From: Neovahlkampfia damariscottae
Lineage: Eukaryota > Heterolobosea > Selenaionea > Neovahlkampfiida > Neovahlkampfiidae
Length of the DNA stretch: 64,000 nucleotides
Direction of reading: 5' to 3'
Assembly (NCBI GenBank): GCA_016618085.1
Contig: JABLTG010000038.1
Span: 57,342 to 121,341 of the forward strand
The notes under the pieces were generated by a model. It saw only the letters and a program-made list of their open reading frames with translations, had not been told where the DNA came from and made no database searches. The position numbers and the translations under genes are program-made. Positions 354 through 59,020 of this stretch are shown here, piece by piece; the stretch's first letter is position 1, and each line of letters begins with the position of its first letter.

Positions 354-3195
354 TTATTTATTCTTTGTAATTTTAGTAAATTTTTGACCTGCAAAAAATG
401 AAAGTTTGTTCAATTGATTTTTTTTAAAATCATCTCTCATTTTTACGAATTGATATAATTCTTCTTTTGAAATAGTTTTATCTAATTCCATTAAAATACT
501 TTCAATATTTTCAGATTTAACAATAAATATATTTGAACATTCTCGTAAATTATTAAATTGATACTCAACAGCTTCAATTCCAAATTGACGAATTACCTTT
601 TGATATTCACTTAAATCTCTCATGAATCGAATAGCACCATAATTGGAAACTGATAAATTTCTCAATGAAGAAACTAACAATCGATAAAATTGTAACCCAA
701 GTTCAGTCAAAAATGATTCTCTATTTGAACCAAACAATGTATGAGAAATTGACTTCAAATTTGACTGTAAATAAGCGCAACTGTTTAAACAAGCTGTAGT
801 TGGGTTATTACTGAATTGATTTTGAACATCTTTTTTGAAAAAATCATCTTGTTTCAAATCTTTGTCGAAAATCTGTTTCAATGAATCAAGTATGTATTTC
901 AACTGATATTCTAATAATTTTACGACTTTAGATTCAACAGGAATGAATAATTCATCTCTCAATTTAAGACATTCAAGTCGAATTTCAATGGATGAAGTCA
1001 TTGATGGCATTGCTGATACTTCTAAATGTCTTTCAAGACTGTATAATGTTGAATTACCCAATTGAAGTAATTTAAATATACTAGTTTTTTGATCATATTT
1101 GATTACAGGTCCAGGCATTTTTACGATTCCATATTCATGAAGACAACTTTGAAAAGTTATTTTTAGATTTATTTTTTTTAAATTACTCATCAAATGCTTT
1201 GTTGACATAATATCCAATTTCTGTGAACAGAACTTTCAAAATTTCATAAACATTATATTCCCTGAATGTTAGTTTTTGATTGGTTTACAATTCTCCTTTA
1301 AAAGAAAGCGAAATTGCTCTTCGTACTGCTGTATCATTCAAATGAATCAAATTCACAACAAAATCAAGTTTTAAAGGATCTCTGTCAAATTCCCATTGAA
1401 CTGCATTTGTATTTTCTGATCCAGTTGATGAAGAAATTAAATTTAAACTTTTCCTTTTTTTCATTGGACTAACAGGTGCATTTGTTGGTGTTCCTGAATT
1501 CTTTCTTGGAGTTTTTAAATAGTTCCCAAAATATCCTTTTGTTGGGGTATCAAGTGCCTCAATTGGAGCGTTTTGTACTTCCAATTCTTTGATGTAAATG
1601 TTGTAAAACTCTTTTAAATGTTTCAGCTCCAAAGAAACGTAATTATTTCTTCTTTCCAAGAAAATTCCATAAAATAAAGGACGTATGAAATTTTCATTAA
1701 TTGGTAATTTTGGTGTTGATTCAAATAACCTGTCACAATGTTGAATGACACAGAGATAAAAATTTTCTAAATTTTCTAAATAAATTCCTAAAACATCAAC
1801 TTCATTTGAGTCAAAAATAGTATCTGGTTGCACTAACAAATGTTCAACAATTAAACTATGAGCATCAGTTGCAATATTTGTCAACAATTTCCTAACAACT
1901 TCTTCTTCATGATTTGGGAATACTTCTCGAATGACCAAATATTCTTTTTGAATTAAACTTTCAACAGTACCCAAATAATCCTTAAAATCTTTCAAATTTT
2001 TGACACTTTCCAAAATTGAATTCTTGAGCTCTGATTTGTCAGTTTTTGGAATAGTATTATATTTGATAACTGGTGAATCAATTGTATCATCATCATCATC
2101 AACATGATCAAATAATGGTAAAGGAGCATTTCCATTCATTTTTTGTTCAACACTTGAATTCGTTGGTTCCAATTTATAATTTGTCTCTAAATCGAATGAT
2201 TCAGGTGCCTCATCATCAGAATCATCACTCAAATCATAGTATTCTTTGTCACTAATCTTTGCTAAAATTTTTAAAATTTTACCATATCTTTCTTCAACAT
2301 AAGTATCAATACATTTATCTTTGCTGTTAAAATCAAAAAGCACATTTGCTCTTCGTTCTAATTTTTTTAAAACTTGATCTTTATGTAAATCCAAGCATTT
2401 TAATGGTCTAAGAAAATTTTCGAGTAAATATGATTCTATCATGTCACTGTAAGTTTTAATGTTGATAACAGCCTAAATTGTTAATTTAAAAACTTTTTCA
2501 AACTCGATAACAAGATTGAACTTTTCCCAAGTCTTTAACAATTAAGTTTAATTGTTTTGTTTTCTTGGCAGCTCCTTTCCTACAAGTTTTTGTGAAAATT
2601 GTATAAGCCAATTGTTCCGAGTTATTTCTTTCTGGATGTTTTAATGGTAACATTACTCTTTTGAATTTATCAGTTTCATATTTATTAAATTCATTAATAT
2701 AACGAATTAGTTTATCTGCTTCAATTGCTCTTTTTTTATGTGAATCTATTGTCTCTAAATTATTGCCAATTTGAACAGTTGTATTTCCAACTTTGTTAAT
2801 ATTGTCTTCTAAACCTTTTAATTTTTCAGAAATAGGATCTAATTCTTCTTGTAAATTTTTTAATTTTTGTGTTTGAATTTTTTCATTTTCTTCAATTTCA
2901 TGAATGGAACTTTCAGAATTATCAATTTCTTCTTGACGTAATTTTTGAAGTTCAGTTAATGTATCATTGAATAAATTTTCAAAAGCGTTACAATATATAT
3001 CAAAAGAAGTTGATTTTTTGGCTTCATTTAAAATTCTATAAGTCAAATTCTCAACAAAATCTTTTTCATCAAATTTCTTGTTTTTTTTGTTATTTATTTT
3101 TTTTTTACCCTAAAGTTTTCACTTGAAAATAAAGTCGAAGGAGGTTTGAAATTTGAGAGATTCACTTGAACTTTGTCTTTTTTGTGATGACTCAT
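354..3195 (-). CDS. SEC10: Exocyst complex subunit Sec10 (EXOC5)
   Basis: Core subunit of the octameric exocyst, which tethers secretory vesicles to the plasma membrane. I assemble five exons (3195-3109, 3076-2504, 2472-1289, 1261-1187, 1146-354) into one frame of 903 codons. Introns are 32, 31, 27 and 40 nt. The N-terminal coiled coil (about residues 60-130, with the segment ISEKLKGLEDNINKVG) and the C-terminal block (RDLSEYQKVIRQFG, then VKSENIESIL and FVKMRDDFKK) match the Sec10 family. The short fourth exon supplies the NVYEILKVLF-IGYYV segment expected from plant Sec10. The protein is longer than human Sec10 (about 700 aa), partly because of an acidic and proline/threonine-rich insert in exon 3. 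The motif TCCAATCATT lies at 3206-3215, just upstream of the ATG. The family call is firm; splice sites are by eye. Confidence 0.88.
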
Positions 3196-12302: not shown

Positions 12303-14576
12303 TTATTCTTTTTTCAAATCTTGTTGTTTTTGTTTGTGCTTTGCAAATAACTCTTGTAAAAGAGCAACCATTGGTTCTTTCGATTCATCAATATTTGCAT
12401 TTTCAAATGTGAAATCATTTGGAATTTCTGAAGTCAATGTATCAAATCTTTTTAACATTGATTTTGCAAATACCATTAAAAACATTTTCATTGTTGTTTT
12501 TCCAGGTGTGAAAGACAAACGAGGATCAATCATTCTTAACATGGAGATTTTGGTCTGTGTATCTGAAAGTTTTTCAAGAACTGAAAATTCTACAACAGGA
12601 GAGCGATATCCTTCAACTTCAATGTCCTTTTGTTGACTCTTGTCAAAAACTGTGAATGAGATCTTTTCATTAAATTTATGTACACATCTGATATCTCCAA
12701 TGTATGGCCTGATTAAACCTGTGATTTTGGTGCCACAAGGTGACATAACCAATGATTGTGTGTAATCTATTTTTCTTGCCATTTTAACTGGGAATGTTGA
12801 ATATCTATCATCACTAAAGACAAAACTTGGATTATCATTTTCAGTGAGGAGAGATTTATATTTTTCATCAACATCTTCTGGATTTACTTTTTGAAGCATT
12901 TCCAATTTTGTTGTATTAAGTTCCAGTGAATCCCTTTTTCTGATAAGATGATGGCAATAAGCTAATTTTTCAAAAGGAATATCTAATACTCTTTCCAGCA
13001 TCAAATTTTTCGCATTTTGAAAAACCTTTGAATTTGGAACAAAGTTTGAATTTGAATAATATATCTTTGAGTTGTTTGATGAATAGATCAAATCCCAATG
13101 GACATCTGTTGTCAGAACTGAAAAATAATCAAATTCGAAATTGAAAATAAAAGGAATATTCAAATCATCATCTGTATGCGGATGTTCAAAAAATGGAAGA
13201 GTGTCAAATGATTGTTTCTTTTTCATTATTTTGTAGGCCAAGTTCAAAAATGGTTCATTGTTTGTTGCTTTGAATGAATCAAGAGAAACGTCCATTGTCA
13301 TGTCATTTAATGTTTTGCTTAGAGTTTTTTCAATTTGACTTGCAATTCTTTTATATCCTTTATCCATCACAAAGGTGTTTTGCATGAAACCTTTCGGATC
13401 AACAACTAAAAAGAAAATTGTGAAAATTGATAAAAACGAACTTGACAACATTGTGACCCTTGTAGTGAAACCATCAATAATTTCTATCTTTGTCATATTC
13501 ATGAATGAAGAGATAAAACCGTCAACCGTTTTTTTCTCTTTGTTTTTGTTTGTAAAATCAAACTTCATCTTTTTCTTCCAATCAACGACTGATCCTTTAT
13601 GGTCACCAAGAAATGGTCTTTTGATGAATGTTAAACTTTGTGATTCGTTATCAAAATCGACTAAATATACATCAGTTGATTTTCTTGGTGTGTTCATTGG
13701 AAATGGTGGCTGCACACATGTTTCTCCAATGATTGAATGAATCTGATTAGCAATATCATCATCTGGATATTGAGCAGATATATTTTTAACTGAAAATGTT
13801 TCTCTAATTGATATATCTGTTATAATTGGATTGAATTGTTTGGTATGTTCAATAGACAAAAAAAAATTAGCAACCTTTTCAAAAGAGTATGGCAAAGTAG
13901 CATTGGTTTTATAAGCCTTAGCGTTGCTGAAAAACTTTGATTCTGGTAAAAAGTTCAAGTGACTTGTATATACATCGAATCTATCTTTTGAGTCAATGAG
14001 TTCCCAAGCAAAAGAGTCTTGTGTTAATTCGTTTAAAAAAGAAACTTCAGATTTGGTGATGAATGGTTTTTCATAGTATTCATCAGTAAATGGATATTTT
14101 AAAGCAGTGATGACTTTCATAACTCTTGTATCTTCGGAGTATTTTTCAGCTATTTCAGCAAATTTTTTTGTTCTGACGAATCTTGGAAAGTTATCAGCGT
14201 TTAGTTCTGAACTGAGAATTCTTTTCAAAGGAAAGAATATTTCATAAGCAGTTTCTTCTAGTATCCATTCATTTTCTTTTAATTGTTGTTCTAAAGAGGT
14301 CAACAAGGTTTTCTTTGTTGACTGTGAAATGTTTACTTCATGTTGAGCCTTTGGATTGATGAATTTATTTACAATATCTTGGCATTTTTGGATAATATCT
14401 TCATCTAGTGATAACTCATTGAGTTCATTTATAGCGAGGACACATAAAAACGGTTCTGGATTGAACTCTGTTTGGAGGAATTCTAAAAAGTGTTCTTGAA
14501 TTTCTTTAAAGTAAAATACTGAACCAAATTCGATGACGTATGTTCTAATATCAAAACTTGAACGACTTCTCTTCAT
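12303..14576 (-). CDS. RGS protein with two START-like lipid-binding domains
   Basis: N-terminal RGS fold (about residues 10-140, with VRTKKFAEIAEKY near its end) followed by two START-like domains (about 165-430 and 480-740). RGS domains speed GTP hydrolysis by G-alpha; START domains bind sterols or phospholipids. The architecture matches the four tandem genes at 24.8-31.8 kb but with a second START. A frame-preserving 36-nt GT-AG segment near 13408-13443 (LSSSFLSIFTIFFLV if translated) is best read as an intron. Removing it turns MLSSSFL...VVDPKG into MLSIVDPKG, which lines up with MLRMIDPR in the second START. It lacks the intron that the tandem genes have between RGS and START. Confidence 0.78.
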   Translation of the reverse strand: MKRSRSSFDIRTYVIEFGSVFYFKEIQEHFLEFLQTEFNPEPFLCVLAINELNELSLDEDIIQKCQDIVNKFINPKAQHEVNISQSTKKTLLTSLEQQLKENEWILEETAYEIFFPLKRILSSELNADNFPRFVRTKKFAEIAEKYSEDTRVMKVITALKYPFTDEYYEKPFITKSEVSFLNELTQDSFAWELIDSKDRFDVYTSHLNFLPESKFFSNAKAYKTNATLPYSFEKVANFFLSIEHTKQFNPIITDISIRETFSVKNISAQYPDDDIANQIHSIIGETCVQPPFPMNTPRKSTDVYLVDFDNESQSLTFIKRPFLGDHKGSVVDWKKKMKFDFTNKNKEKKTVDGFISSFMNMTKIEIIDGFTTRVTMLSSSFLSIFTIFFLVVDPKGFMQNTFVMDKGYKRIASQIEKTLSKTLNDMTMDVSLDSFKATNNEPFLNLAYKIMKKKQSFDTLPFFEHPHTDDDLNIPFIFNFEFDYFSVLTTDVHWDLIYSSNNSKIYYSNSNFVPNSKVFQNAKNLMLERVLDIPFEKLAYCHHLIRKRDSLELNTTKLEMLQKVNPEDVDEKYKSLLTENDNPSFVFSDDRYSTFPVKMARKIDYTQSLVMSPCGTKITGLIRPYIGDIRCVHKFNEKISFTVFDKSQQKDIEVEGYRSPVVEFSVLEKLSDTQTKISMLRMIDPRLSFTPGKTTMKMFLMVFAKSMLKRFDTLTSEIPNDFTFENANIDESKEPMVALLQELFAKHKQKQQDLKKE

Positions 14577-22262: not shown

Positions 22263-22708
22263 ATGGAACAAGCAGATCTTGGAATTGTTGGTTATAGTGC
22301 TCCTGAGTTTATCAGAATGTGTAAATGTTGTAAAAATCCAATTATAAATTACGGAAGATTGGTAAGAGTTCAAAATAAAAAAAAATTAAAAAACTGAATT
22401 TTTTAGATGCCTTGTAAAAAAAAAATATTCACAAAAAATTAAATTTTTTAATTTTAGGTAAACATTACTTCTGTTTTTCATGTGCTGCAAAAATGAAAAA
22501 CTGTGACTGGTAAACTTTTTATTTTCCATTTTTAATTTTTAAATTTTAAAAAAGGTGTGAACAGGAAATTCAAGAAGTTGTGAAAACCGATAAAATTTTC
22601 ATATGTATGGTTTGTAATAAATCATATATGACACAATTAGATTACCAAGATCATCAAAAACTCAGAGGTCATGGTTTTGGTTCAAGAAAAAATTACAACA
22701 AAAATTAA
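22263..22708 (+). CDS. Hakai-like E3 ubiquitin ligase (CBLL1 family, HYB domain)
   Basis: Small RING plus zinc-finger protein. Four exons (22263-22361, 22407-22413, 22458-22509, 22555-22708), 103 aa. The atypical RING reads CKCCKNPIINYGRLMPCKHYFC, FSCAAKMKNCDWC; the following C2H2-like finger is FICMVCNKSYMTQLDYQDHQKLRGH. This arrangement matches Hakai/CBLL1, a member of the m6A-writer-associated complex. Exon 2 is a 7-nt micro-exon supplying MPC within the RING; without it the cysteine-histidine pattern breaks. TCCAATCATT lies 28 nt upstream. The TAA stop interlocks with that of the convergent CDF gene. Confidence 0.83.
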
Positions 22709-24081
22709 AAAATTTCTTTATGTTCGTCAATATTTCTATGATCTTTTTCATAATCTATATGAACAAAACATCTTTCTACATCATCTATTAATTCTATTTT
22801 TTTTTGTAAAGATTCACCAATGTCATGAGCAATATTCAAAGGTGTTTCTGGATCTAAACCTATATCTAATTCAACCCATATTCCAACACCTACATGAAAA
22901 GCGCGTACTGTGTCAATAAACAAAACTGATGGATGATGATTAAAAGCTATTCTAGTTAATCTTTGATGAAATCCACTTGAAGGTGATAATCCGATTAATT
23001 TTACAATTAAATCGTATGATTCTTGAACCCAATTTTTAATGATATATAATGAAGCTATAGTAGCAGCTAATGGATCAAGAACCCAAGTATATTGTGGATA
23101 AAGAAACTTTGAAATCAAAATCGCGGTCAACAGTAAACTATTGGAAATCACATCATTTCTATGATCCATAGAAAGAGCAATAACAGACGGAGACCATTTT
23201 TGAAACCTACACATCAAATATAAACATGATTTAGCAATGATAGTAAAACCCAAAGCGAATATCCCAATATAGTAAGAAATATAGTCAAAAGGAGTCACCA
23301 AAACTTCGACAGTTATCGGAGTAATAAGATTATTTATAATCAATTCAATTGATTCTTTTATAATTTCCAATGAACTAGTTGACATTACAGCTGCAAAGAT
23401 GATAAATCCAATTGGTTCAAGTCTAGTTTTTCCAACTGGATATTTGTGTTCATCATTCTTTTTTCTTCTAAATCTATTTGTGAAATATAAAATTAAACCA
23501 GAAAATAAATCTAAAAAGAAGTTTCGGAAAAATTAATTTTTTTTTTGTTTACCTAAAAAGGAGTCCAGTGTTGAAGCTAAAACAGAAAGTGAAAGTGAAG
23601 TGATAGCAGCTGTTAATTTAATCAAAAATATTAAAATATTCATTAAAAAAGAAACTGTGAGTGAAAATTTTTCAACTCTTTCTCGCCACTTGTCCGTTTT
23701 TTGTCTTTTAATTTCTTCTGCTGTATTTTCTTCAGGATGTTCAGATTTTTGAATTAGAGCTTGATCTTCTTCAAAAAGTTCTTCAAGAAGTTCTTGTTTT
23801 TTGTAGAAATTTTTAACATTTTTTTTGTGAAAGAAATTACAACATTTTGATTTGTTTTCATCTTTGTTTGTTAGTTTTCCTTCATATTTTCCATAGTGTT
23901 GTTTTCTGTATTCTCTTGTTTCGATGAAATGTATTGGTCTTGGAGAAGTTACTTCTGGTTCTGAGGTGTTTGGTGAGTTTATTTCTTGTATAGGTGTTGG
24001 TGATTCATTTGGTTCTGTGTTATTTAGTTGCTGAGAATTTTGGTTTTGGTTGGATGTTCTGGTCTCTAATTCAGTCTCCAT
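22705..24081 (-). CDS. Cation diffusion facilitator (CDF/SLC30) transporter
   Basis: Divalent metal/H+ antiporter (Zn, Mn or Fe). Two exons (24081-23553, 23510-22705), 42-nt intron, 444 aa. A long acidic, Ser/Pro-rich cytosolic N-terminus (about 150 residues) precedes six membrane segments. TM2 carries STLDSFLDLFSG, TM5 carries ALSMDHRNDVISN with the HxxxD/DHxxD-type metal site, and EHKYPVGKTRLEPIG is the inter-helix signature. The C-terminal ferredoxin-like domain (AFHVGVGIWVELDIGLDPETPL) matches plant MTP8-11 type manganese/zinc transporters. No forward CCAAT element is obvious. Confidence 0.9.
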
Positions 24082-24795
24082 TGAAAAAATGTTTTGGTAT
24101 TTGTCAATTTGCCAATGAAAATTTTGTCAAATTGATATATCAGCAGATCAATTTAAGTGGCAAATCAAAGTTTATTTCGAAATTGAAGCTTTAAAAGAAA
24201 TTGGTTTAAACTTGGCATTGACTTTGTTCAAGAAACTTTTAAAGATAAAGTTTTCCAACAAGTTTTAAATTTCAGGTTTTTGTTTGCTATGAGAAACATA
24301 ATAATTTAAAAACCATGCTCAATAACTTGGTTTAGATTTGTTGAAACAAGTGGTTATTTTTTTTTGTCTTGGGCTGACAAAGGTAAACAAATTTCAACTT
24401 TAAATTCTTTTCAAATAGATTTTGAGATGAAGAATCTTTGAAGTTTGATTCATGTTTTTTCATTTTTTATCAAGCAATATTTTTGAACAGTTCATTTTGA
24501 AAGAGAGTTGTATTGAAAGGAATACTCCATTTAAACTTCAAAGGAGCTTGAATTAGTGCAAAAAACTTCATGAAAGCAAGAAGAACAATCAAGTATTTCT
24601 TTGAACTAATCAGACCAAATCAATTGCCGAATTTGGCTATTTTTTAAACGAATTGGGAGACTAGCCGGTATTTTATGCTACCTCTAAATATTAATATTTC
24701 ACCTAAAAAATGCATTTCCAGCTGCTTAAAAAAATTGACCATTCAAATATAAACATTGAAATGGGTGGTGTCCAATCAACGATTAGCTTATTGTT
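24082..24795. other. Intergenic spacer, CDF to RGS array
   Basis: About 700 bp without a supported gene on either strand. Only the TCCAATCAAC element at 24771-24780, 15 nt before the first RGS-START ATG, and a CCAATGAAAA on the forward strand near 24111-24120 (wrong orientation for the CDF gene) stand out. Confidence 0.5.
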
Positions 24796-26236
24796 ATGAC
24801 ACAACAGTTCAACAAGACACAATATACCGTTCACTTTGACTCTGTATTCACAAACAAGAAAATGGGTGGTGCATTTAAGGATTTTTTAGCAACAGAACAC
24901 AACTTGGATGCTTGGAACTTTTTACAAGCCATCAAAACCTTAGAAACTGTTACTGATGAAAAAGACAAAATAAAAAAAACAAGACATATCATGTCCAACT
25001 TCATCGAGCCTAACTCAAAAGAAGAGATAAACATCTCAGGAGAACTCAGAAATCACGTTCTAGCTGCTTTTAAAAAACAAGAAGAAAATGCGAAAGAATG
25101 GGTGCTTGAAGTATCACCAACTGAACTTTTTTCAGAATGCTTTAAACTTATTGTCAGTCTTTTGACTCATGATCCTTTCAAAAGATTTGTAAGAACGACT
25201 GAGTGCGAAAACGTAATGAAGCAATACCAACGAGATTCAACAGTAATTTCACCGGTCATAACACAAACTTTTGGCTTTGACGATAGTTACTTTACAAATC
25301 CTCACTTTAGAGATCTAGATATTGACTTTTTCTTATCATTATTTAAAGACAGTTATCATTGGGAAGTAAGATATCTTTTGGACGAACTAAAACCTTTCAT
25401 AGTTAATTGGTTCAAAAATTACCGAAAATACAAATGCTTATATTTCAAAAACGAACTTCTTTCCTGACGTTTCAATTGTGAAAAAGTTAAAACTCTCAAA
25501 ATTTGAAAGTTTTTTACCATGTACTTTTGATCAAGCTTTACTTAGTTATTTTGACAATGATCAATTGTACAAAGCCGATCCAAATTGTGGAAAATATGAA
25601 ACTGTACAATATTTTAGTTACGAAGAATTATTAGAACATCACAAAAACACCAAAACATCGGGTGATATTCAAAAATACAAAAGAGATACTGCTATCAGTA
25701 GAATTGAATTGAAATTACCATTCCCACTTGATCCAAGAGTCGCAAACTATGCTATGACTTGTTATTATGACCCTGTTGAAGAAGTTTTTATGAGAATTGG
25801 AAAGACATTCTTGAAAGAAGGAAAATGGGATGGGTCAACAAAAGTGGAAGAAGTGACTTTAAAAAGAGGAGCAAAACCGACAAAGAAAAAAGTTCATACC
25901 CTTTTTCTCTTTTCAGCTGGATTATATAAGAAATTAGATAACAAACGTGTATTTTATCAAGAAATCAATTTCAACAACTTTTCTGGATGGGCTTCTTCAA
26001 ATGCGATGTCAAGAGTTATTATTAAAGAAAGAAAAGATAAATTTAGAAATCAAATGTTAGATTTAGCTAAAGATATCCCAGAAAATGCAAAAATCATGAG
26101 TTTAAAAGACGAATTATTCAGATTAATTGATGGAAAAATGAACGGTCTTGGAAATATTCTTTATAACACTATTCAACTCAACAAACCTGAAATAAAAGAC
26201 GAAAAAAGATCTTCAACATTCACTGAAGAAGACTAA
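24796..26236 (+). CDS. RGS-START protein, tandem copy A
   Basis: First of four head-to-tail paralogues. Two exons (24796-25365, 25403-26236), 37-nt intron, 467 aa. Residues 1-135 form an RGS domain (FTNKKMGGAFKDFLATEHNL, FKRFVRTTECENVM), expected to act as GAP for G-alpha. Residues about 175-440 form a START-like domain (SKFESFLPCTFDQALLSYF, NYAMTCYYDP, LFLFSAGLYKK). The intron falls exactly in the linker between the two domains. Its second exon starts LIGSKITENTNAYISKTNF. The tail is charged (KDEKRSSTFTEED). This is the most divergent of the four in its first 100 bases. Confidence 0.85.
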
Positions 26237-26724
26237 TATTAAAAATAAACACATTCTGTTTTCTTAACTCCAATTTTTTTTTGTTCAACTTTTGATGAAA
26301 AGAAGGCGAGGTTTGACTCAAAAAAGTTCAAACATCCTTAAGAATAAATAGCATATTCTTAAGAAGATAAATTTCAACGTTTTCTCAATGAAAATTATCA
26401 CAACTTTTTTGGGTAGATTCAAAACTCCCAAAATGAAACACAAGTCCAAATTTGGATGTGCTTCGGAGAAAAATATAGATCATTTTTCACCTTCAATGGA
26501 GATCTAAAAGAAATATTTGTTCTCACATTTATTTTATGAGCTACTTTCGTTACATTTCCATTTTTGACAGAAAGTTCTTTTTTAAGGTTTTTTTTGTTCC
26601 GTCTGGAAAACTGTAAATCATAGTGAAATGCTGAAAAAATAACAAAGGTTCATTCTTGGTTCAAATTAAATTCAGATTTTTTTGTTGATCGTATTGTCCA
26701 ATCAAAATCGCTTTTGCTTCTAAC
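26237..26724. other. Intergenic spacer between RGS-START A and B
   Basis: About 490 bp. It contains the CTTAAGAATA hairpin described separately and the TCCAATCAAAA element at 26697-26707. No coding region recognised. Confidence 0.5.
26337..26363. repeat. Perfect 10-bp inverted repeat (hairpin)
   Basis: CTTAAGAATA and its exact complement are separated by a 7-nt loop, about 100 nt downstream of RGS-START copy A. It could be a 3'-end processing or regulatory structure, or chance in AT-rich DNA. Confidence 0.4.
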
Positions 26725-28123
26725 ATGACTCAAACCTTTGACAAAACTCAATTCACTGTTCACTTTGACTCAGTATTCACTAATAAGAAAATGGGTAACG
26801 CTTTTAAAGACTTCTTGGCGACAGAGCACAACTTGGACGCTTGGCATTTCCTAGAAACCATAAAATCATTGGAAACTGTCACAGACTCAAAAGACAAAGT
26901 TAAACAGTCCGCACAAATCATCAAAAACTTCATTGAAGTTGGATCAAATGAAGAAATAAACATATCAGCTGAGTTCAGAAACTATGTAACAACAACTTTT
27001 GAAAAACAAAAAAGTGAAGAATGGACTCTTGAAATGACACCTACAGAGCTTTTTTCAGATTGCTTCAAGCTTGTTGTTAGTCTTTTAAGTCATGACTCCT
27101 TCAAAAGATTCGTCAGAAGTTCAGAATGTGAAGCAGTGATGAAACAATTCAGACACGACAGTACAGTTATTTCACCTCTTATTACAAAGAAGTTTGGTTT
27201 TGATGACAAGTATTTCACAACACCTCATTTTAGAGATAGAGATATTGATTTCTTTTTATCCATGTTTCAAGACAGTTACAATTGGAAAGTAAGAGCCAAT
27301 ATTTTTCACGAACTTTTTATAGTTGATCGGTTCAAAAGTTGAAGATACAATGAACGCTTATATTTCAACCACCAACTTCTTGCCTGATGTTACAATATTA
27401 AAAAACTTAAAAGTTTCAAAATTTGAATGCTTTCTTCCTTGCACATTTGACCAAGCTTTACTCAGTTACTTTTCAAATGAACAACTTTATAAATCAGATC
27501 CAAATTGTGGAAAATATGAAACTGATCAATATTATTCATATGAAGATTTATTAGAAGTCCATAAAAAAAACGGAAATGAAGAGGATATCACTAAATATAA
27601 AAGAGATACATCTGTCAGTTCAATGGCACTGAAATTACCATTTCCATTCAATTCAAGAGTTGCAAATTACGCTATGACTTGTCATTATGATCCAGAAACT
27701 GAAGTTTTTATGAGAATTGGAAAAACTTTTTCACCAGAAGGAAAATTTGGTCATAGAGACGTACAGGCAATTCCAGCAAAAAGAGGGGCAGAACCAAAAA
27801 AAACAAAAGTTTATTCATTATTTCTTTTTTCAGCTGGTTTGTATAAAAAAATGGACAACAATCGTGTATTCTATCAAGAAGTTAATTTCATGGATTTAGC
27901 TGGATGGTTCACTAAAGATGCTTTATTCAAAGTAGTTACAAAAGACAGAAAAGATAAATTTAGAGATCAAATGTTGGATTTAGCAAGAGAGTTTCCTGAT
28001 GATACAAAAATTTCTGAACAAAAACAAGCTTTGTTTGAATTAATTGACGGAAAAAAAAATGGTCTTGGACAACTGCTTGTTAACACAATGGAACTGAATG
28101 CAAAAGAATCTGTGAGAGTTTAA
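26725..28123 (+). CDS. RGS-START protein, tandem copy B
   Basis: Two exons (26725-27288, 27323-28123), 34-nt intron at the same RGS/START linker position as the other copies, 454 aa. RGS part: TNKKMGNAFKDFLATEHNL and FKRFVRSSECEAVMKQF. START-like part: SKFECFLPCTFDQALLSYF, VANYAMTCHYDPETEVFMRIG and DRKDKFRDQMLDLA. Its tail (TMELNAKESVRV) is shorter than those of copies C and D. Start chosen at MTQTFDKTQ, 18 nt after the CCAAT-type element. Confidence 0.86.
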
Positions 28124-28559
28124 TTTATAAATTTTTAATTTTATTTTCAATTTAAAACGTTTGGTTTTTTTAGAGTCTTCTAATGTGTGTTTCTCTTTCG
28201 GGCAGAGTTTTTAGCTCCAAATTCATTTTTTTCAACTTAATTCGGAAACAGCAAGGAGTTTTATTCAACTCAAATTGAGAAAATTAGACAACAAAAAATT
28301 CTCATTTCTTACTTTCTATGCAGTTAACCATTCATCCAATGTTTCTTCCGGATTTGAACTAGTTGTTCCTTTTTGGCTTTTTAAGTTCTTATTTTGGAAT
28401 TTTCTGGGATAAATTAGGAAGAAAGAAAATCAAACAGATGAAAAACCTGTTCTTCCTAAAACCAATATTTTATAAAAGAAAGATATTCCAGACAATTTTT
28501 AAAAAATCGAAGTTGATTTGTACCCAAATTGACCAATGAAATTCGCTTCTACTATAAAC
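28124..28559. other. Intergenic spacer between RGS-START B and C
   Basis: About 435 bp of AT-rich sequence. The element ACCAATGAAA at 28532-28541 precedes copy C. No other feature seen. Confidence 0.45.
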
Positions 28560-30019
28560 ATGACTCAAGCGTTTGACAAGAGACAATTCACTGTTCACTT
28601 TGACTCAGTATTCACAAACAAGAAAATGGGCAATGCCTTTAAGGATTTCTTAGCTACAGAACACAACTTGGACGCTTGGAATTTCTTAACAGCTGTTAAA
28701 AGTTTGGAAACACTTACAGACCCAAAAGACAAAGTTAAAAAGACCAAAGAAATAATCGCAAACTTCATAGATGTAGGCTCAAAAGAAGAAATCAACATAT
28801 CTGCTGAGCTGAGAAACGGTGTAACCAATACTTTCAGAAAACAAGAGGACTCAGAAGAATGGTCCATTGAAGCAACACCAATAGAGGTTTTTTCAGATTG
28901 CTATAAACTTGTAGTTAACTTATTGACTCATGATCCATTCAAAAGATTCGTGAGAACACCTGAATGCGAAGCTGTGATGAAACAATTCAAACACGATAGC
29001 ACTGTTATTTCACCTCTTATAACAACAAGATTTGGTTTTGACGACGATTATTTCACTCACCAACATTTCAGAGATAGAGATATTGATTTCTTTTTATCAT
29101 TGTTTCAAGACAGTTACAATTGGACAGTAAACAAAATTCTTTTTTCTTAACATATTTCAAGATGATTGGGTCAAAAGTAGAAGATAGCATGAATGCTTAT
29201 GTCTCACATACAAACTTCTTTCCTGATGTTACAGTAGTTAAGAAGTACCAAATTTCAAAATTCGAAAGTGTGCTTCCTTGCACCATGGATCAAGCTTTAC
29301 TCAGTTATTTTGACAACGAACAACTTTACAAATCTGATCCAAATTGTGGAAATTACGAAACAACTGAATACCATACATACGATGATTTATTAGAATTTCA
29401 TAAAAAAAGCAACACGTTAGATCATATTCAAAAATACAAAAGAGAAACTGCTGTCAGTAATATTGTAATGAAATTACCATTTCCTTTCAATTCAAGAGTT
29501 GCAGATTATGCTATGACATGTTATTATGATCCAGAAAACGAAGTCTTCATGAGAATTGGAAAAACTTACATAAAAGAAGGAAAATTCGGAACAAAAGACA
29601 AAAAGGAAGTTCCTTTGAAAAGAGGAGCAGATCCTAAGAAAGCAAAAGTATATTCATTATTTTTATTCTCTGCTGGATTATACAAAAAAATGGATAACAA
29701 TAGAGTTTTCTATCAAGAAGTAAATATCAACAATTTAGCTGGATGGTTTTCTAAAGACGCATTATTCAAAGTTATTACAAAAGACAGAAAAGATAAATTT
29801 AGAGATCAAATGTTACAACTTGCAAGAGAATTTCCAGAAGATACAAAAATTGCAGACCACAAAGAAAGATTATTTAAATTGGTGGATGGAAAACCAAATG
29901 GACTTGGACAACTTCTCATCAACACATTGGAAATTAACAAATCAAAAGAAGTTGAAAAAACTGTTGAAAAAAAAGAAAAAGAATCAAAAACTGAAGACAT
30001 TGTTCCACAAGAAGAATAA
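28560..30019 (+). CDS. RGS-START protein, tandem copy C
   Basis: Two exons (28560-29126, 29162-30019), 35-nt intron, 474 aa. RGS and START-like domains as in copies A, B and D, with a longer lysine/glutamate-rich tail (about 25 residues). An in-frame ATG 24 nt upstream lies inside the CCAATGAAA element. Because all four paralogues share MTQ/MSQ-FDK, I use the later ATG. About 90 nt near the 5' end are almost identical to copy D, including most synonymous sites. Confidence 0.86.
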
Positions 30020-30380
30020 TTAATAAAATATTGAATTAATTTCATACTTATCTTGACTGCTATTTTTGGAGGATTTATCTTCACCAAAGAGAGGTCATCC
30101 AGATAAGGCAGTTCTTGCTTTTTGTTTTTGATGAATTGAAGAATAGCCCCAACTCATGATTTTTGGTTTTATGTTTTGAAATACCCATGTACAGCTTTGG
30201 AAGTTGAATGCCCAAATTTGGATGAGGATTCTCAATTTGGAGATTTTTTTTATGCATGAAGAAGAAGGAATACATCAGTATTTTTACAAAATAACTTATT
30301 TTTACCAAGAAAATTAAAAAAGTAAAATATTTACTTTCTATTTGTCAATTTGCGTCCAATCGAAACTCACTTCGTAAAAA
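30020..30380. other. Intergenic spacer between RGS-START C and D
   Basis: About 360 bp without a recognised gene. The TCCAATCGAAA element at 30355-30365 precedes copy D. Confidence 0.45.
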
Positions 30381-31816
30381 ATGAGTCAACCGTTTGACAA
30401 AACCAAGTTCACTGTTCACTTTGACTCAGTATTCACAAACAAGAAAATGGGCAATGCCTTCAAAGACTTCTTAGCTACAGAACACAATTTGGACGCTTTC
30501 AATTTCTTACAAGCCGTCAGAACTTTGGAAACTGTCACAGACACAAAAGAAAAAGTTAAGCTGACCAAAGATATCATCACAAACTTTGTGGAAGTAGGCT
30601 CAAAAGAGGAAATCAACGTCTCAGGAGAACTAAGAACTGCAACATTAAGAACCTACAAAAAACAAGAAAACTTTCACGACAAATGGGTACTTGAAGTAAC
30701 TCCAAAAGAGCTTTTATCTGATTGCTATAAACTTGTATTGAACATTTTATCACATGATTCCTTCAAAAGATTTGTCAGAACTGCTGAATGTGAAGCTGTC
30801 ATGAAACTTTACAAACACGATAGTACAGTAATTTCTCCGCTTCTTACCACGTTATTCGGATATGATGATGAATATTTCAAACATCAACATTTCAGAGACA
30901 GAGATATTGACTTCTTCTTATCATTATTTCAAGACAGTTACAATTGGAAAGTAAGTGCATTTTTTCTAAAAAAAAAAAGTTAATTGGCTCAAAAGCTGAA
31001 GACAATATGAACGCTTATGTATCACAAACAAACTACTTACCTGATGTATCATTCTCTAAGAAGTTGAAAATTTCAAAATTCGAATGCGTCCTTCCTTGCA
31101 CCTTTGATCAAGCTTTACTCAGTTATTTTGATAATGAACAACTTTTCAAATCCGATCCAAATTGCAAGAAATACGAAACAATTAACTATTACAATTACGA
31201 AGAATTATTGCAAATCCACAAACACAACAACGATGAAGATGAAATCAAGAAATACAAAAGAGAAGCTACTGTTAGTACAATGGTGATGAAGTTACCATAT
31301 CCACTCAACAAACGAGTTGCAAATTATGCAATGACATGCTATTACGATCCAAAGACTGAAGAATTCATGAGAATTGGAAAGACATTCTTAAAAGATGGAA
31401 AATTTGGTTCAAAAGACACTAAAGACGTCTATTCAACAAAAGGTTCAGATTCAAAGGAAAAAGCTTATTCTTTATTTCTTTTCTCTGCTGGATTATACAA
31501 AAAAATCGACAAAAATCGTGTCTTCTATCAAGAAGTAAATGCAATGGATTTAGCTGGTTGGTTTTCATCTGCAATAGTCTTCAAAGGTATCACAATGGAT
31601 CGTAAAGATAAATTTAGAGATCAAATGTTAAACTTGGCTTTAGAATTTCCTAAAGATACAAAAATTTCTGACCACAAAGAAAGATTATTTAGATTAATTG
31701 ATGGAAGACCAAATGGACTTGGAATGCTTCTTATCAATACCATTGAACTTGGTAAAGGAACAATTGAAGAAAAACTTCATGATAAAAAAGAAAAATTAGT
31801 TTCTGTTCAAGAATAA
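30381..31816 (+). CDS. RGS-START protein, tandem copy D
   Basis: Two exons (30381-30950, 30980-31816), the shortest intron of the array (29 nt), 468 aa. RGS: TNKKMGNAFKDFLATEHNL, FKRFVRTAECEAVM. START-like: SKFECVLPCTFDQALLSYF, VANYAMTCYYDPKTEEFMRIG, LFLFSAGLYKKIDKNRVFYQE. A charged tail (EEKLHDKKEKLVSVQE) ends the protein. It lies 46 bp upstream of the ZnT9-like gene. Confidence 0.86.
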
Positions 31817-31862
31817 AAATTCATCATTTGTAGTCATTTTTTTTCAACCAATAGAATTCGTT

Positions 31863-33200
31863 ATGAAAAGCTTCAAAAAATTCAATGTGCAAAACTTAAA
31901 ACTGTTGAAAATAAACCAACTCCATAAAATCAAACAAATACAAATTGGTATCCGAAGGAATCACAAAAAAATTGAAAATGAGAATGAAAAACAAATTGTG
32001 TTAAAAAAAATCGAAAATCATGAAAAACCAAAATCTGTTGAAAAAGAAAGTATAGGTCATAAAGCTGTTTTGGCCTCTTTAAAAGGAAATTTTTTCATAC
32101 TCAGTAATTCTTTTCTTATTCATTTTTCAAAAAAAAGCCATTAAATTATTTGCTTATATTTCCTCAGGTTCTGCTGCAATGTTGGCTGAAACATTTCACT
32201 CACTCTTGGTATATTAATTTTATGTTTAATTTTTTTTTTAAAGGATTTAGTGAATCAAGGTTTATTGTTTATTGGATTACGTCAAGCATCAAACTCTCCT
32301 GACGCAAAACACCAATATGGTTACGGAAAAGCATCTTATTTTTGGACTTTAGTTTCGGCTATGGGTATTTTTTGGATTGGTTGTATAGGTTGTACTTATA
32401 ACGCAATTCGTAAAAACAAAAAAATTTAAAATTTTGTAGATCAAATTTTTGTTGATCCAAGCGAGCCACATTTTACATGGATAACAGGAGCTGTATTATT
32501 TACATCTTTTGTTGTTGATTTTTCAGTTTTTTCAAGCGTCATAAAAGGACTTATCAAAGAAAAACCAAAAGACGTAACACTATGGAAATATTTATTGAAT
32601 ATTAAAGATCCAATGGTTTTAGCTGTTTTATTAGAAGATATAGCAGCAACTCTTGGTGTCATAATAGCAAGTGTAGGTATTGGTTTAGCTCTATTTACTG
32701 GTTACAATGTATTTGATGGAATTGCTTCTTTAATTATTGGAGTATTATTAGGTGCAGTAGCTTGGACTCTAGTCATGATGAATAAGAGGTTTTTAATAGG
32801 TCAATCTGTTGATTTACATATCCAGAAAGGGATAAATCAAATAATCACTTCAAGACCTTCTGTAGAAGGTATTTTTAGCGTTCAAACTCAGTGGTATGGA
32901 CCAAATCAATTTTTGTATAAAGCAGAAGTAGATTTTAATGGAATTTATCTTTCTCTTCAATTGAGAAATCTTGGTTATGAAGATTTATTACTGAACCAAA
33001 ATAAGAAAAATGAAATTGCAAATATTTTAGGTATTTTCTCTGAAGATATTATGAGAGTTATAGAAGCTGAAATTCGTTCAATTGAAGCTGAAATTAAAAA
33101 GAAATATCCAGAAGCTGGGTTTATTGAAATTGAACCTTTCTCAAAAAATGCAGAAGAATTCGAAATTCGAAAATACAAAAATAAAAATTTTGATTATTAA
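31863..33200 (+). CDS. CDF transporter, ZnT9 (SLC30A9)-like
   Basis: Predicted mitochondrial or intracellular zinc exporter. Four exons (31863-32103, 32138-32208, 32244-32409, 32440-33200), introns 34, 35 and 30 nt, 412 aa. The lysine-rich N-terminus (about 60 residues, basic, few acids at the start) could target mitochondria. The membrane core has LAETFHSLLDLVNQGLL, HQYGYGKASYFWTLVSA and VLLEDIAATLGVIIA, the SLC30A9 signature. The C-terminal cytosolic domain is followed by an acidic helical tail. The stop codon interlocks with the convergent EF-hand gene in a TTAA. It is only distantly related to the CDF at 22.7-24.1 kb. Confidence 0.9.
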
Positions 33201-51137: not shown

Positions 51138-52416
51138 ATGGGACAGCTTTATGCATATTTGATAACTCCTCCAATACAACAACGTAATTTTATTTTTTTT
51201 ATTTATCTCTTGAATAGAATATTTAATGAATGAATCTGTTCCAACGACTAAAAAAATAAAACACTCTAAAAAACCGAATTACAACATTTTGTTATTAGGT
51301 TCAACAGAAACTGGGAAAGTAATCGAAAATTGTTTCATAATTTTTTTTTAGACAACTGTATTGAATCATATGCGAATGTGTTCAGGTATTTCAGATAAAT
51401 TCAACGGAAGAGTATTTTATGAAAATCCAAAAGATGGTTTGAATATTTAAATATTATTTAAGTTAATATAAAGATTTGTCTTTCTCTGAAAAAGAGTTAT
51501 TAGTTTACAAAAAATACATTGACGAAAATATATTTCAAACAACAAAAGTATGCCTTCAAACCATCAGAAAATACAATGAATCTTTTGTTAATCCTGAAAA
51601 CGAAGTAAAATATGATTTCACTAATTTTTTAAAAGACATTTTGCGACGAATTTTTGAAATTTCCAGATTTCAAAATTTTCGATGAAGTTGGGTTGTCTCA
51701 TCAAATTATAAGGTCTTTATCTGTATTATGGGATGAAAATATAATGCTTTTAACACTGAAAAAATATCAAGATGTTGATTTTAATTTATCTGATGGTGTT
51801 TCATAGTAAGAGCTTGCAATTCAAAAATTGAATTTTTAATAGCCTCGTTAAACCTGAAAATATTGTTCGTTTTTCATCAAGACATCCACAGATTGTTCAA
51901 GAAGATATTCTTCACTTGTACAGAAAGACAAATGTGGTCTCGAAAACTAGATTTGAATTTGATTCGTTAAATTTTGTGTTCATAGATGTTGGTGGAAAAT
52001 TATTTGATCAAGTTTCAAAATCTGAAAAAATAATTGATTCTTCAAAAGGAAGAGTTGTAATTTATGTCATTTCGTTATCAGAATATAATCAAAATTCAAC
52101 AAAAAATATCGGAAAAACAAAGATGGATGATTCATTGGCTCTATTTGAAAAAATAGTATCAATGAAAAGTTTAGAAGATGTTCCATGGTTAATTCTTTTT
52201 AATAAGGTTGATGTTTTTGAATCAAAATTGGATCAATTTGATTTAAGGTATTATTTCGAGTATTATCATGAAAAAGATGATCCTGTTGAATTTATAACAC
52301 GTCAATTTTTATCAAAAGCCAAACATTTGATTTATGAATATAAAGTCATGAGTGCTTTTGATCAAAATTCTGTTGTTGATATCATACAGAAAATGGAGGA
52401 AAAATTGAACCTTTGA
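51138..52416 (+). CDS. Divergent G-protein alpha subunit-like GTPase (short form)
   Basis: Six exons (51138-51183, 51218-51318, 51352-51436, 51474-51604, 51636-51805, 51843-52416), introns 31-37 nt, 368 aa. The P-loop is LLGSTETGKTT, the nucleotide motif FNKVD is intact, and the helical insertion between them has G-alpha size. Differences: switch II reads DVGGKLFDQ, with Lys in place of the catalytic Gln; the switch I stretch DILHLYRKTNVVSKT has Tyr at the position of the arginine finger when aligned on the Mg-binding Thr; the usual TCAT motif is SAFDQ; and the C-terminal receptor-binding tail is short. Gly2 follows the initiator Met, so myristoylation is possible. Stop is TGA. Confidence 0.85.
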
Positions 52417-52694
52417 AAAAATATGAGGATAAAAATTTTGTTGAATTTTATGATTGGAATATAATGGAATTGTTTCATTTGTCAACTTTAGACACAAAAA
52501 TGACGAGGTACAAATTTTGTTACCAGGGGTGTTGATTTTCAAGGGTCATGTTTGTGGATACAAAATTATGCGTATTTTAGCTGAAGAGTTTTGATTTTTA
52601 AATTTAATTTTCTTTTATCCAAATTAAGAAGTCTGTTTTCACCAAATAAGTACAAAGAACCATTTCGATTGGTCAGCTATCTCCAAAAAAAATA
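52417..52694. other. Spacer before the kinase-cyclase gene
   Basis: About 280 bp. An inverted CCAAT-type element (GATTGGTCA, near 52670) precedes the next gene in the opposite orientation from most genes. No coding region seen. Confidence 0.4.
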
Positions 52695-55600
52695 ATGGAG
52701 GAAACGTTACTCATTGACAAGTTTGACAAAACTAAAGATGTTATTTTTCAGTCTGCTTCCACTATCATTTATAAAACGATGGACTTGAACACAAACAAAA
52801 AAGTGCTGGTAAAACATCCATTCAAAAAATTTCCGTCACCTTCGCTTGTTGAAAACTTTAGAAAAGAGTACCAGTTTGGAAAGGCACTTTATGAACTATT
52901 TCCAGAAAACTTTGTCAACGTAATTGAACTCATCGAAACCTCTGGTACCGTAGCGCTTGTACAAGAACCAGAAGGAGCTTCTCTTGCAGAAATTATCACA
53001 ACCAAAGGAAAATTTAAACTTGAAGAGTTCTTAGAATACTCAATTTCTATCACAGATTCACTTGCTAAGCTTCATTCCAACAATATGATCCATCAAGATA
53101 TTAAGCCAGCAAATATCGTTTTAGGAGAAAATGGAAAATTAAAAATCATTGATTTGGGTATCACTGTTATTGTATCAAGAAAATCACCTTCAATATCAAC
53201 CAATTCACCAGTCGGAACATTTTTATACATGAGTCCTGAACAAACTGGAAGAATTTCAAAGAACATTGATTTTAGAAGTGATATTTATTCATTAGGAATT
53301 ACATTTTATGAAATGTTAACAGGATTTGTTCCATTTAATGGAGACAAGATTAGTTTAGTTCATTCACATATTACTAAAAAGCTACCAATTATCGAAAATA
53401 TACCAAATCAAATTAATGACATTTTACAAAAGATGTGTTCAAAAAATCAAAATGAACGATACTTCACATCTTCTGGATTACTTAAAGATTTGCAATTTTG
53501 TTTAGAAAATATTTCAAAAATCAATGAAATTCAATTTGAATGTGGGAAAGACGAATTAGATCAATTTCACATTCCAAATAAATTATATGGAAGAGATGAA
53601 GAATTGACTCTTTTGAGAAGCTTTATTGAATCCAATACATCAAATATGTGCTGTATATCTGGTTATTCTGGATGCGGGAAATCAAAACTTATTTCTGAAA
53701 TCACTAAAGACCCAAAAAATAATGTTTTAATGGCAGGCGGTAAATTTGATCAATTTGATAGATCAACTCCTTATTCAGCTTTTATTTCAATTTGCAAATC
53801 AATGCTATTTCAAATTATGGAAGATGAAGAATTCAAAACGAAAGTTACAAATCTATTAGAAATTTCACTTGTTGATGAATTTGGATCGATTATGAATTCA
53901 ATGATACCTGAAATACAATTATTTATCGGAGAACAAAAAAGTGAAATTCCAATTCTTTCAAAAACAGAAGAAGTTCAAAAAAGACTTTTCAATGCATTCA
54001 TCAAATTTTTTAATTGTTTCACTCAAAACAAACAATTAGTACTTTTTATTGATGATTTACAATGGTCAGATTCTGCTAGTTTTCAACTTATTGAACATAT
54101 TTTAACATTAAAAAAATGCAAAATTTTTATCATTGGAGCCTATAGAGATAATGAAATTGATTCCAATCATCCATTAACTCAAATATTACAACAAAACAAA
54201 AATATCCAAGAAATCAATTTGAAACCATTAAAAATTGAATATTTGAATGAAATGATATCCGACACTTTATTATTAAAAAGTGAAGAAACTTTATCGCTTG
54301 GTGAATTAATTCATAAAAAAACACTGGGAAATCCATTTTTTTCCAGAGAATTTCTTATTACTTTATATGAAGAAAATTTAATTTACTTTGATGGAAAATG
54401 GAAATGGGATTTACAAAAAGTACAAAACATGAATTTTAGTTCAAATGTGATTGATTTTATGATTCAAAACTTGAAAAAAGAATCAAAAGAAATGCAAAAA
54501 ATTTTAACTTGTGCATCTTGTCTTGGGAATACATTCACAGTTCCAGAATTATCTTTGATTTGGGATGATAAAAAAGATTTGGTGACATTACTTTTGGAAC
54601 CTTCTAGAAATGGTTGGATTTATCAAATCAGTTCACAAGAATATAAATTCTTTCATGACAGACTTCAACAAGCATCATATGAATTATTCAGTGAAGAAGA
54701 AAGAAAGAAATCACATTTAACAATTGGAAAAGCACTGTTAAAATCATCCATTGAAAAAAATGATTTAAATGATAAAATATTCAAAATTGTGAATCATTTG
54801 AATATCGTTAAAGATGTTTATGAAGACAAGAACGAATTGTTGAAATTGAATGTTATGGCAGCGAATAAATGTCAACAAAATAGTGCCATCAAAGCAGCAC
54901 ATGAATATTCAAGTATTGCAATGAATTTATTGTCAGAAGATCATTGGAAGAATAATTATGATAACGCATTTCTTGCTTATTCATCACATGCAGATTCATG
55001 TTTTGGTGTTGTTGATCATGAAAGTTCAACCAAAACATTTCAAAGTATTCTTGAACATGTTACCCACAGAATTCAAAAACTAAAAACATATTCAAATTTT
55101 ATGAAGGTTACTTTGGCTTCATTTCAATTCGATCTTGGTTTTGACAACTTATTGTCAGTTTTGAGTATGTTTGAAGAAACAAAAGAAATTCCAGAAAATT
55201 ATCAAAATCCAGATCTGTCAAACAAATGGCTATTTCAATTGAAAAGCAATATTGATGATCAAGTTGATCTGTATGGAGGGGTTTCTCAAATATTTGACAA
55301 AATGAAATATTGTGACGATGAAGAAATGATTCTTCTTCAAAAAATTTTAGCTGAAACATCTGACTTGGTTATATTGTGTGAAAAAGCTACTCCTACATTT
55401 GTACTCACTTGTCCTTTGGTTGCTCTTTATCTTTCTTTGAAGAATGGATTCACTGAAAATGCTCTTTCTGGATTTTCATTTGGTGCTGTTTATTTGTCAA
55501 CATTCTTTCGAGATCCAAAAGGAAGGGAAATGTATTTCTTGGTCGAAAAATTGAAACAAATTATGAAAAACTATCAAGTGTCTATTGTTGAATTCTCTCA

Positions 55601-58776: not shown

Positions 58777-59020
58777 AATATTTGTTCTTTTCAGTTTTTC
58801 AATGTTAGTACGAAGAAAGAAATACTGATTTGTTGTTCAATCACCTTTTGTTTTTTTCTATTCTCCAAAATTGAATTCTGGATGAGAATTTAGGAGTGGA
58901 ATATTCATATTGATATTCCAATATTGTTTTTTTCCAAAAGTGATAATCTGATGAATGTTAAATGGTGTTGAAAAAAAAGAAAACTTTTTGATTGGTTAAA
59001 CATTTAACGTTGTCATAAAA
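58777..59020. other. Spacer upstream of the long G-alpha-like gene
   Basis: About 245 bp. Near 58895 an inverted pair GGAATAT / ATATTCC flanks a short spacer. An inverted CCAAT-type element (GATTGGTTAAAC) lies near 58990. No gene. Confidence 0.4.

Follow-up and report, generated by a model that had tools for sequence, protein, structure and literature searches.

A 64,000-nucleotide stretch of the genome of the heterolobosean protist Neovahlkampfia damariscottae (assembly GCA_016618085.1, contig JABLTG010000038.1, positions 57,342 to 121,341; hereafter the window) carries four tandem genes, g1 to g4, that each encode an RGS domain followed by a START-like domain, as well as a relative at 12.3 to 14.6 kb with the domain order RGS-START-START. 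The genome sequence amounts to 20.4 Mb in 307 contigs, and GC content in the window is 29%. An earlier note, made from the letters alone, had reported these five genes, and gene models, EukProt entries, Pfam RGS matches and the predicted fold of g3 bear it out. As modelled, a short linker connects the RGS and START domains within a single polypeptide. We lean slightly towards the view that these genes belong to a lineage-specific RGS-START family in which the START domain binds lipid and places or gates the RGS domain at membrane G-alpha. Such a heterotrimeric counterpart of the RhoGAP-START proteins, with dozens of copies in a single protist, would couple G-alpha signalling directly to lipid state. 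A GTPase regulator fused to START is already known in the form of RhoGAP, and the genes here are a variant of it with RGS. The RGS-START combination looks undescribed; no description of it was found in 5.39 million open-access papers, a collection that leaves subscription papers and preprints outside, and the sole paper there that mentions both "RGS domain" and "START domain" places them, in the part available to us, in different proteins.

Domains and gene structure in the window

RGS and START differ in how they are recognized. The Pfam profile PF00615 matched the RGS part of all five proteins; a Pfam scan gave E-values of 6.8e-18 (g1), 7.5e-17 (g3), 4e-16 (g4) and 9.6e-12 (relative), with scores of 45.8 to 65.6 bits against a cut-off of 23.9, and the RGS domain of g2 is known from the genome-wide profile search (2.0e-15, 61 bits). 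With E-values of 1e-11 or better, chance RGS-like motifs are ruled out. RGS was the only domain above the Pfam cut-off in the scanned window proteins (g1, g3, g4 and the relative), which contained no RhoGAP domain. By contrast, the START profile PF01852 found no match at E up to 1 in g1 exon 2, g4 exon 2, the g3 protein or the relative; the same model matches 20 stretches elsewhere in the genome. Structure prediction supplied the START assignment for g3 but not for the relative. In the AlphaFold2 model of g3, compared by Foldseek, the RGS helical fold and the START fold, including its closing C-terminal helix, are both clear, and the START fold aligns to lipid-carrying STARTs along most of their length. 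The best g3 model had a mean predicted local distance difference test score (pLDDT) of 70 and a predicted template modelling score of 0.54, the other four models scoring 46-55, whereas the model of the relative (pLDDT 43.7, mostly below 50 outside the RGS domain) is too poor for a judgement of fold. A search with g3 alone against PDB sequences gave no match at 1e-6. The two START-like domains of the relative are, by sequence search, homologous to each other and to the array-type START. The array proteins are thus RGS proteins by profile and, judged from g3, by fold, and START proteins by fold rather than by Pfam profile. Compared with the START carriers STARD4, STARD5, STARD10, PCTP and CERT, their START part has 6-12% identity, falls below Pfam detection and is placed behind an RGS domain. 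The features concerned are as follows (positions are those of the window).

24796..26236, plus strand: g1, RGS-START gene, 467 amino acids; intron 25366-25402 (37 nucleotides, phase 0); RGS domain 24835-25197; EukProt P0008
26725..28123, plus strand: g2, RGS-START gene, 454 amino acids; intron 27289-27322 (34 nucleotides, phase 0); EukProt P0005
28560..30019, plus strand: g3, RGS-START gene, 474 amino acids; intron 29127-29161 (35 nucleotides, phase 0); EukProt P0004; AlphaFold2 model
29052..29830, plus strand: START fold of g3 in the AlphaFold2 model (approximately residues 165-412); first helix (172-181) from exon 1, remainder from exon 2
30381..31816, plus strand: g4, RGS-START gene, 468 amino acids; intron 30951-30979 (29 nucleotides, phase 0); EukProt P0006
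12303..14576, minus strand: relative, RGS-START-START, 757 amino acids as one open frame (about 745 if the 36-nucleotide intron is spliced)
13242..14084, minus strand: START-like domain 1 of the relative, by sequence homology, limits approximate
12372..13124, minus strand: START-like domain 2 of the relative, by sequence homology, limits approximate
13406..13441, minus strand: probable in-frame intron of the relative, 36 nucleotides (gttcgt...ttttag), judged from paralogues

Each array gene has one intron of 29-37 nucleotides at an identical phase-0 position (4/4), preceded by codons for HWE in g1, NWK in g2, NWT in g3 and NWK in g4. EukProt holds a proteome of the same organism, with consecutive gene numbers for the array; spliced g3 equals P0004 along all 474 residues (100%), while P0005, P0006 and P0008 correspond to g2, g4 and g1, respectively, P0008 being 22 N-terminal residues shorter by alignment. 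Both exons are under purifying selection: for the ratio of nonsynonymous to synonymous substitution rates (dN/dS), five of the six array-gene pairs gave 0.10-0.18 in exon 1 (synonymous changes being saturated in the sixth), and all six gave 0.22-0.33 in exon 2. The earlier note had set the intron at the exact domain boundary; its conservation in the array holds, but since the first START helix in the g3 model comes from exon 1, the intron is off the domain edge by one helix and lies inside START. As also stated there, the array intron is absent from the relative, in which another, different intron is probable at 13406-13441. The 12 residues encoded by this stretch are not present in P0002 and P0003, and without it the relative would read MLSIVDPKG, compared to LLSMVDPKG in P0002. 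P0002 and P0003 are same-genome paralogues from loci C26 and C305, in single frames of which about half of the sampled 12-residue words fall. As a side observation, a CCAAT-containing motif lies 24-27 nucleotides upstream of the ATG in g1-g4; of the 39 stretches of 60 nucleotides upstream of window open reading frames, 14 contain CCAAT, versus 11% of background 60-nucleotide stretches.

The family across the genome and the origin of the fusion

Copy number in the genome is high for both domains. The PF00615 search yielded at least 150 RGS matches, all 150 above the cut-off; this number, of scored matches out of 421 candidates, is a lower bound. The g4 START query matched 57 stretches in the genome, and the relative as query gave 59 matches, RGS parts included. 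Merging of 93 stretches, i.e., all 57 from the g4 START search and 12, 13, and 11 from three other searches (the rest of which was omitted as apparent repeats of places already entered), left 80 distinct START-like stretches, fragments and weak matches included. An RGS match lies just upstream of 47 of these 80 by interval; reading of the search with the relative added 12 stretches in relative-type genes with RGS (two of these matches, at C98 and C110, cover RGS only partly), for a total of 59 of 80 in RGS genes. Conversely, at least 34 of the 150 RGS matches have a START-like stretch at most 450 nucleotides downstream by search coordinates, a lower bound that is not usable as the true START share since DNA was read for only part of the 150 loci. 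Other arrangements include RGS-START-RGS-START in one 909-residue frame at C296 (locus L061), a second tandem set of five copies on C233 from which the intron is absent, and P0007, whose gene model has RGS and then KH, DUF1771, and Smr domains, and whose START part is probably a stretch on C272 (G000:C272:22855, L012; 586-residue open frame). Long open frames (748-909 residues) with START-like matches were also noted at C296, C42, C40 and C269.

A tree built from 61 RGS domains only places 45 RGS-START domains (the 44 of the corrected class and C296:1376) on one side of a branch with support of 98/97; it was rooted at the midpoint for drawing only. One further domain, C252:204075, was dropped from the RGS-START class as its START match is antisense, 36 residues long, with an independent E-value of 0.001. 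Because the 45 domains share one branch, the fusion in this sample was most simply made once, and the RGS-then-START order would thus trace most simply to one origin followed by large duplication. The opposite order occurs at L074 (G000:C48:12600-14700, 445-1530, plus strand), where Pfam START (1.6e-8) precedes RGS (1e-14) in one 362-residue frame; the RGS domain of L074 sits outside the RGS-START branch, and L074 is a second, independent START/RGS fusion. A scan of RGS-START junctions gave 35 entries from 34 distinct genome places, of which 22 are split and the other 12 run through in one frame (relative-type genes not counted). The W^ phase-0 intron was found by script in 14 of the 22 split junctions, and in addition in the four array genes; among the remaining split junctions, the intron was not placed in L012, L014 and L020, and it differs in L068. 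The intron label needs five changes on a 41-row tree in which some rows are duplicates from overlapping loci. The W^ intron seems to be an ordinary one of early date that much of the core group retained and parts of the group lost.

Outside EukProt, the relatives found were eight ENA/JGI proteins (P0009-P0016). One of these, P0012, contains RGS together with a START-like portion and carries extra residues where the intron would lie, which look like an intron that was read through. A third protein search returned two EukProt proteins, one being the query and the other a 55% match; as the search requires shared 5-residue words, it cannot show absence from Naegleria or other organisms.

RGS active-site residues and G-alpha partners

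The earlier note had called these domains G-alpha GAPs (GTPase-activating proteins). The RGS domain stands, but GAP activity is not assured, as, in alignment to RGS7 (2a72), g1-g4 carry Ala and the relative carries Pro at the position equivalent to N88 (RGS4 numbering). Window RGS domains thus differ from the canonical small RGS proteins RGS8, RGS4 and RGS16 in this replacement as well as in their fusion to START. In the genome, the N88-equivalent Asn was retained in 1 of 44 RGS-START domains, with Pro as the commonest replacement (30/44), compared to 8 of the 15 RGS domains outside this class (p 2.3e-5 by Fisher test, ignoring kinship among domains); C48 and C296:1376, two domains truncated at the edge of their locus, were excluded from this table, and the RGS domain of L074 retains the Asn. 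The equivalents of RGS4 N128, D163, and R167 were retained in 43, 44, and 45, respectively, of 45 domains classed as RGS-START, a class that here still includes the false member C252:204075; the array genes show N, D, and R at these places. For RGS4, mutation of E87, N88, I114, and N128 reportedly removed over 90% of GAP activity (PMC3434218); N88S is in use as a dominant negative (PMC3688948). With the N88 equivalent lost, weaker or retuned GAP activity would be expected rather than the full activity of a typical RGS domain; GAP activity of RGS-START proteins may be weak or lost, while contact with G-alpha appears plausible from the residues retained. We rejected 44 separate losses of the Asn, as the tree puts the RGS-START domains on one branch; the loss may therefore be one ancestral change that was then held. 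Asn-less RGS domains beside Asn-keeping ones in one genome pose a clean question, namely whether the former are still GAPs or have turned effector.

A PF00503 search for G-alpha gave 123 matches, many of which are exon pieces. Two G-alpha-like genes are located in the window itself (51832-52413 and 59000-61297, both on the plus strand); alignment to solved G-alphas shows both to be without the switch-I Arg and the RVKTTG Gly, residues on which RGS depends, and in both the switch-II Gln is replaced or shifted. One of the two is extended at its N terminus by about 400 residues rich in Pro and Lys. The RVKTTG Gly is the RGS-insensitivity position in work on Naegleria (PMC9283941). Since they lack the switch-I Arg and this Gly, the window G-alphas would be poor partners for a GAP test; the exact motif RVKTTGI was found at three G-alpha loci elsewhere in the genome (C72, C271 and C307). 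Large RGS and G-alpha sets have precedent in Naegleria, which resembles this genome in its very large RGS set; 229 RGS genes were reported in N. gruberi (PMC5784254), and 28 seven-transmembrane RGS proteins, 79 other RGS proteins, and one RGS-RhoGEF in N. fowleri (PMC9283941). The RGS-RhoGEF proteins of Entamoeba and Naegleria likewise join RGS to another signalling domain. In the main text of the N. fowleri paper (PMC9283941), the word START is absent and no START fusion is described.

Proposed function and alternatives

A lipid-linked role in G-protein signalling, as the earlier note had suggested, is the natural reading of RGS joined to START. Under the mechanism that we propose, the START cup would bind lipid, and lipid loading or membrane contact would bring the RGS domain to, or release it toward, GTP-bound G-alpha at the membrane, such that lipid state would determine where and to what degree the G protein is turned off or occupied. 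The direction of control from lipid to RGS, like membrane recruitment and G-alpha binding, is part of this proposal. Individual paralogues would vary in the lipid that they bind and the G-alpha that they pair with, in keeping with the many G-alphas of this genome. Support comes from the Pfam RGS matches, the two folds of g3, the EukProt entries that match the gene models, the single RGS-START branch, the presence of RVKTTG G-alphas, purifying selection, the conserved N128, D163, and R167 equivalents, the second START-RGS fusion L074, and the RhoGAP-START parallel. By analogy, RhoGAP-START proteins are the closest functional parallel: DLC/STARD8-12-13 proteins, including Drosophila Cv-c, likewise have a GTPase-activating domain and START in one protein, and STARD13 was among the Foldseek matches of the g3 START, at fold level only. 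RGS-START proteins differ in that RGS (for heterotrimeric G-alpha) takes the place of RhoGAP (for Rho), and no SAM domain was found in them. The Cv-c START has been proposed to regulate GAP (PMC5854602).

Several points weigh against this proposal. The moderate g3 model leaves the placement of RGS and START relative to each other unfixed, lipid binding by START is conjectural, and the N88-equivalent Asn is kept in a single RGS-START domain out of 44 versus 8 of 15 others, although its loss probably counts as one observation, not 43. START domains can also serve as protein-binding modules. In addition, START functions independent of RhoGAP activity have been reported for DLC1, START mutants of which no longer had tumour-suppressor function although their RhoGAP activity was unaltered (PMC8561924); the DLC parallel therefore does not show START gating GAP.

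The main rival reverses the flow, with RGS as a non-GAP reader of active G-alpha and START as the output, i.e., lipid binding or transfer under G-alpha-GTP, similar to RGS-RhoGEF. It is consistent with 43 of 44 RGS-START domains having lost the N88 equivalent while mostly retaining other G-alpha contacts, and with reports of RGS domains as effector inputs in Naegleria and Entamoeba (PMC9283941). However, the RGS domain of that RGS-RhoGEF had GAP activity in the Naegleria work, which hence does not imply non-GAP binding (PMC9283941), and lipid transfer by START is itself conjectural; we regard this arrangement as possible but somewhat unlikely. A bolder version, to which we give a little less credence still, is that an RGS clade of at least 45 domains became readers of active G-alpha upon capture of START, making the proteins lipid-transfer or lipid-sensing effectors; if true, this would be a type of direct heterotrimeric G-alpha effector that we did not find described.

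More doubtful is a role of START in protein binding or dimerisation with no lipid ligand involved, the family then being a set of RGS scaffolds. Weaker constraint on the START half (dN/dS 0.22-0.33), its divergence beyond the reach of Pfam, and protein binding by the DLC1 START (PMC8561924) would fit such a role, but the g3 fold matches lipid-carrying STARTs along most of their length and the DLC1 START binds phosphatidylserine too (PMC8561924). Finally, the fusion could be an artefact of gene prediction, produced by two separate genes or wrong splicing, given that the domains are mostly on separate exons in the array and that the gene models were made from DNA alone. This we consider very improbable, as 12 of 34 distinct family junctions are in one open frame with no intron, the relative is one frame, the EukProt models use an identical splice, and the four array genes all have their intron in the same position and phase; RGS and START as separate genes were rejected on the basis of the one-frame members.

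Among other genes in the window, two that by eye resemble cation-diffusion-facilitator transporters flank the array (22705-24126, minus strand, and 31800-33200, plus strand), and a 1056-residue frame at 52650-55817 (plus strand) resembles, again by eye, a fusion of a protein kinase with an AAA-type ATPase module.

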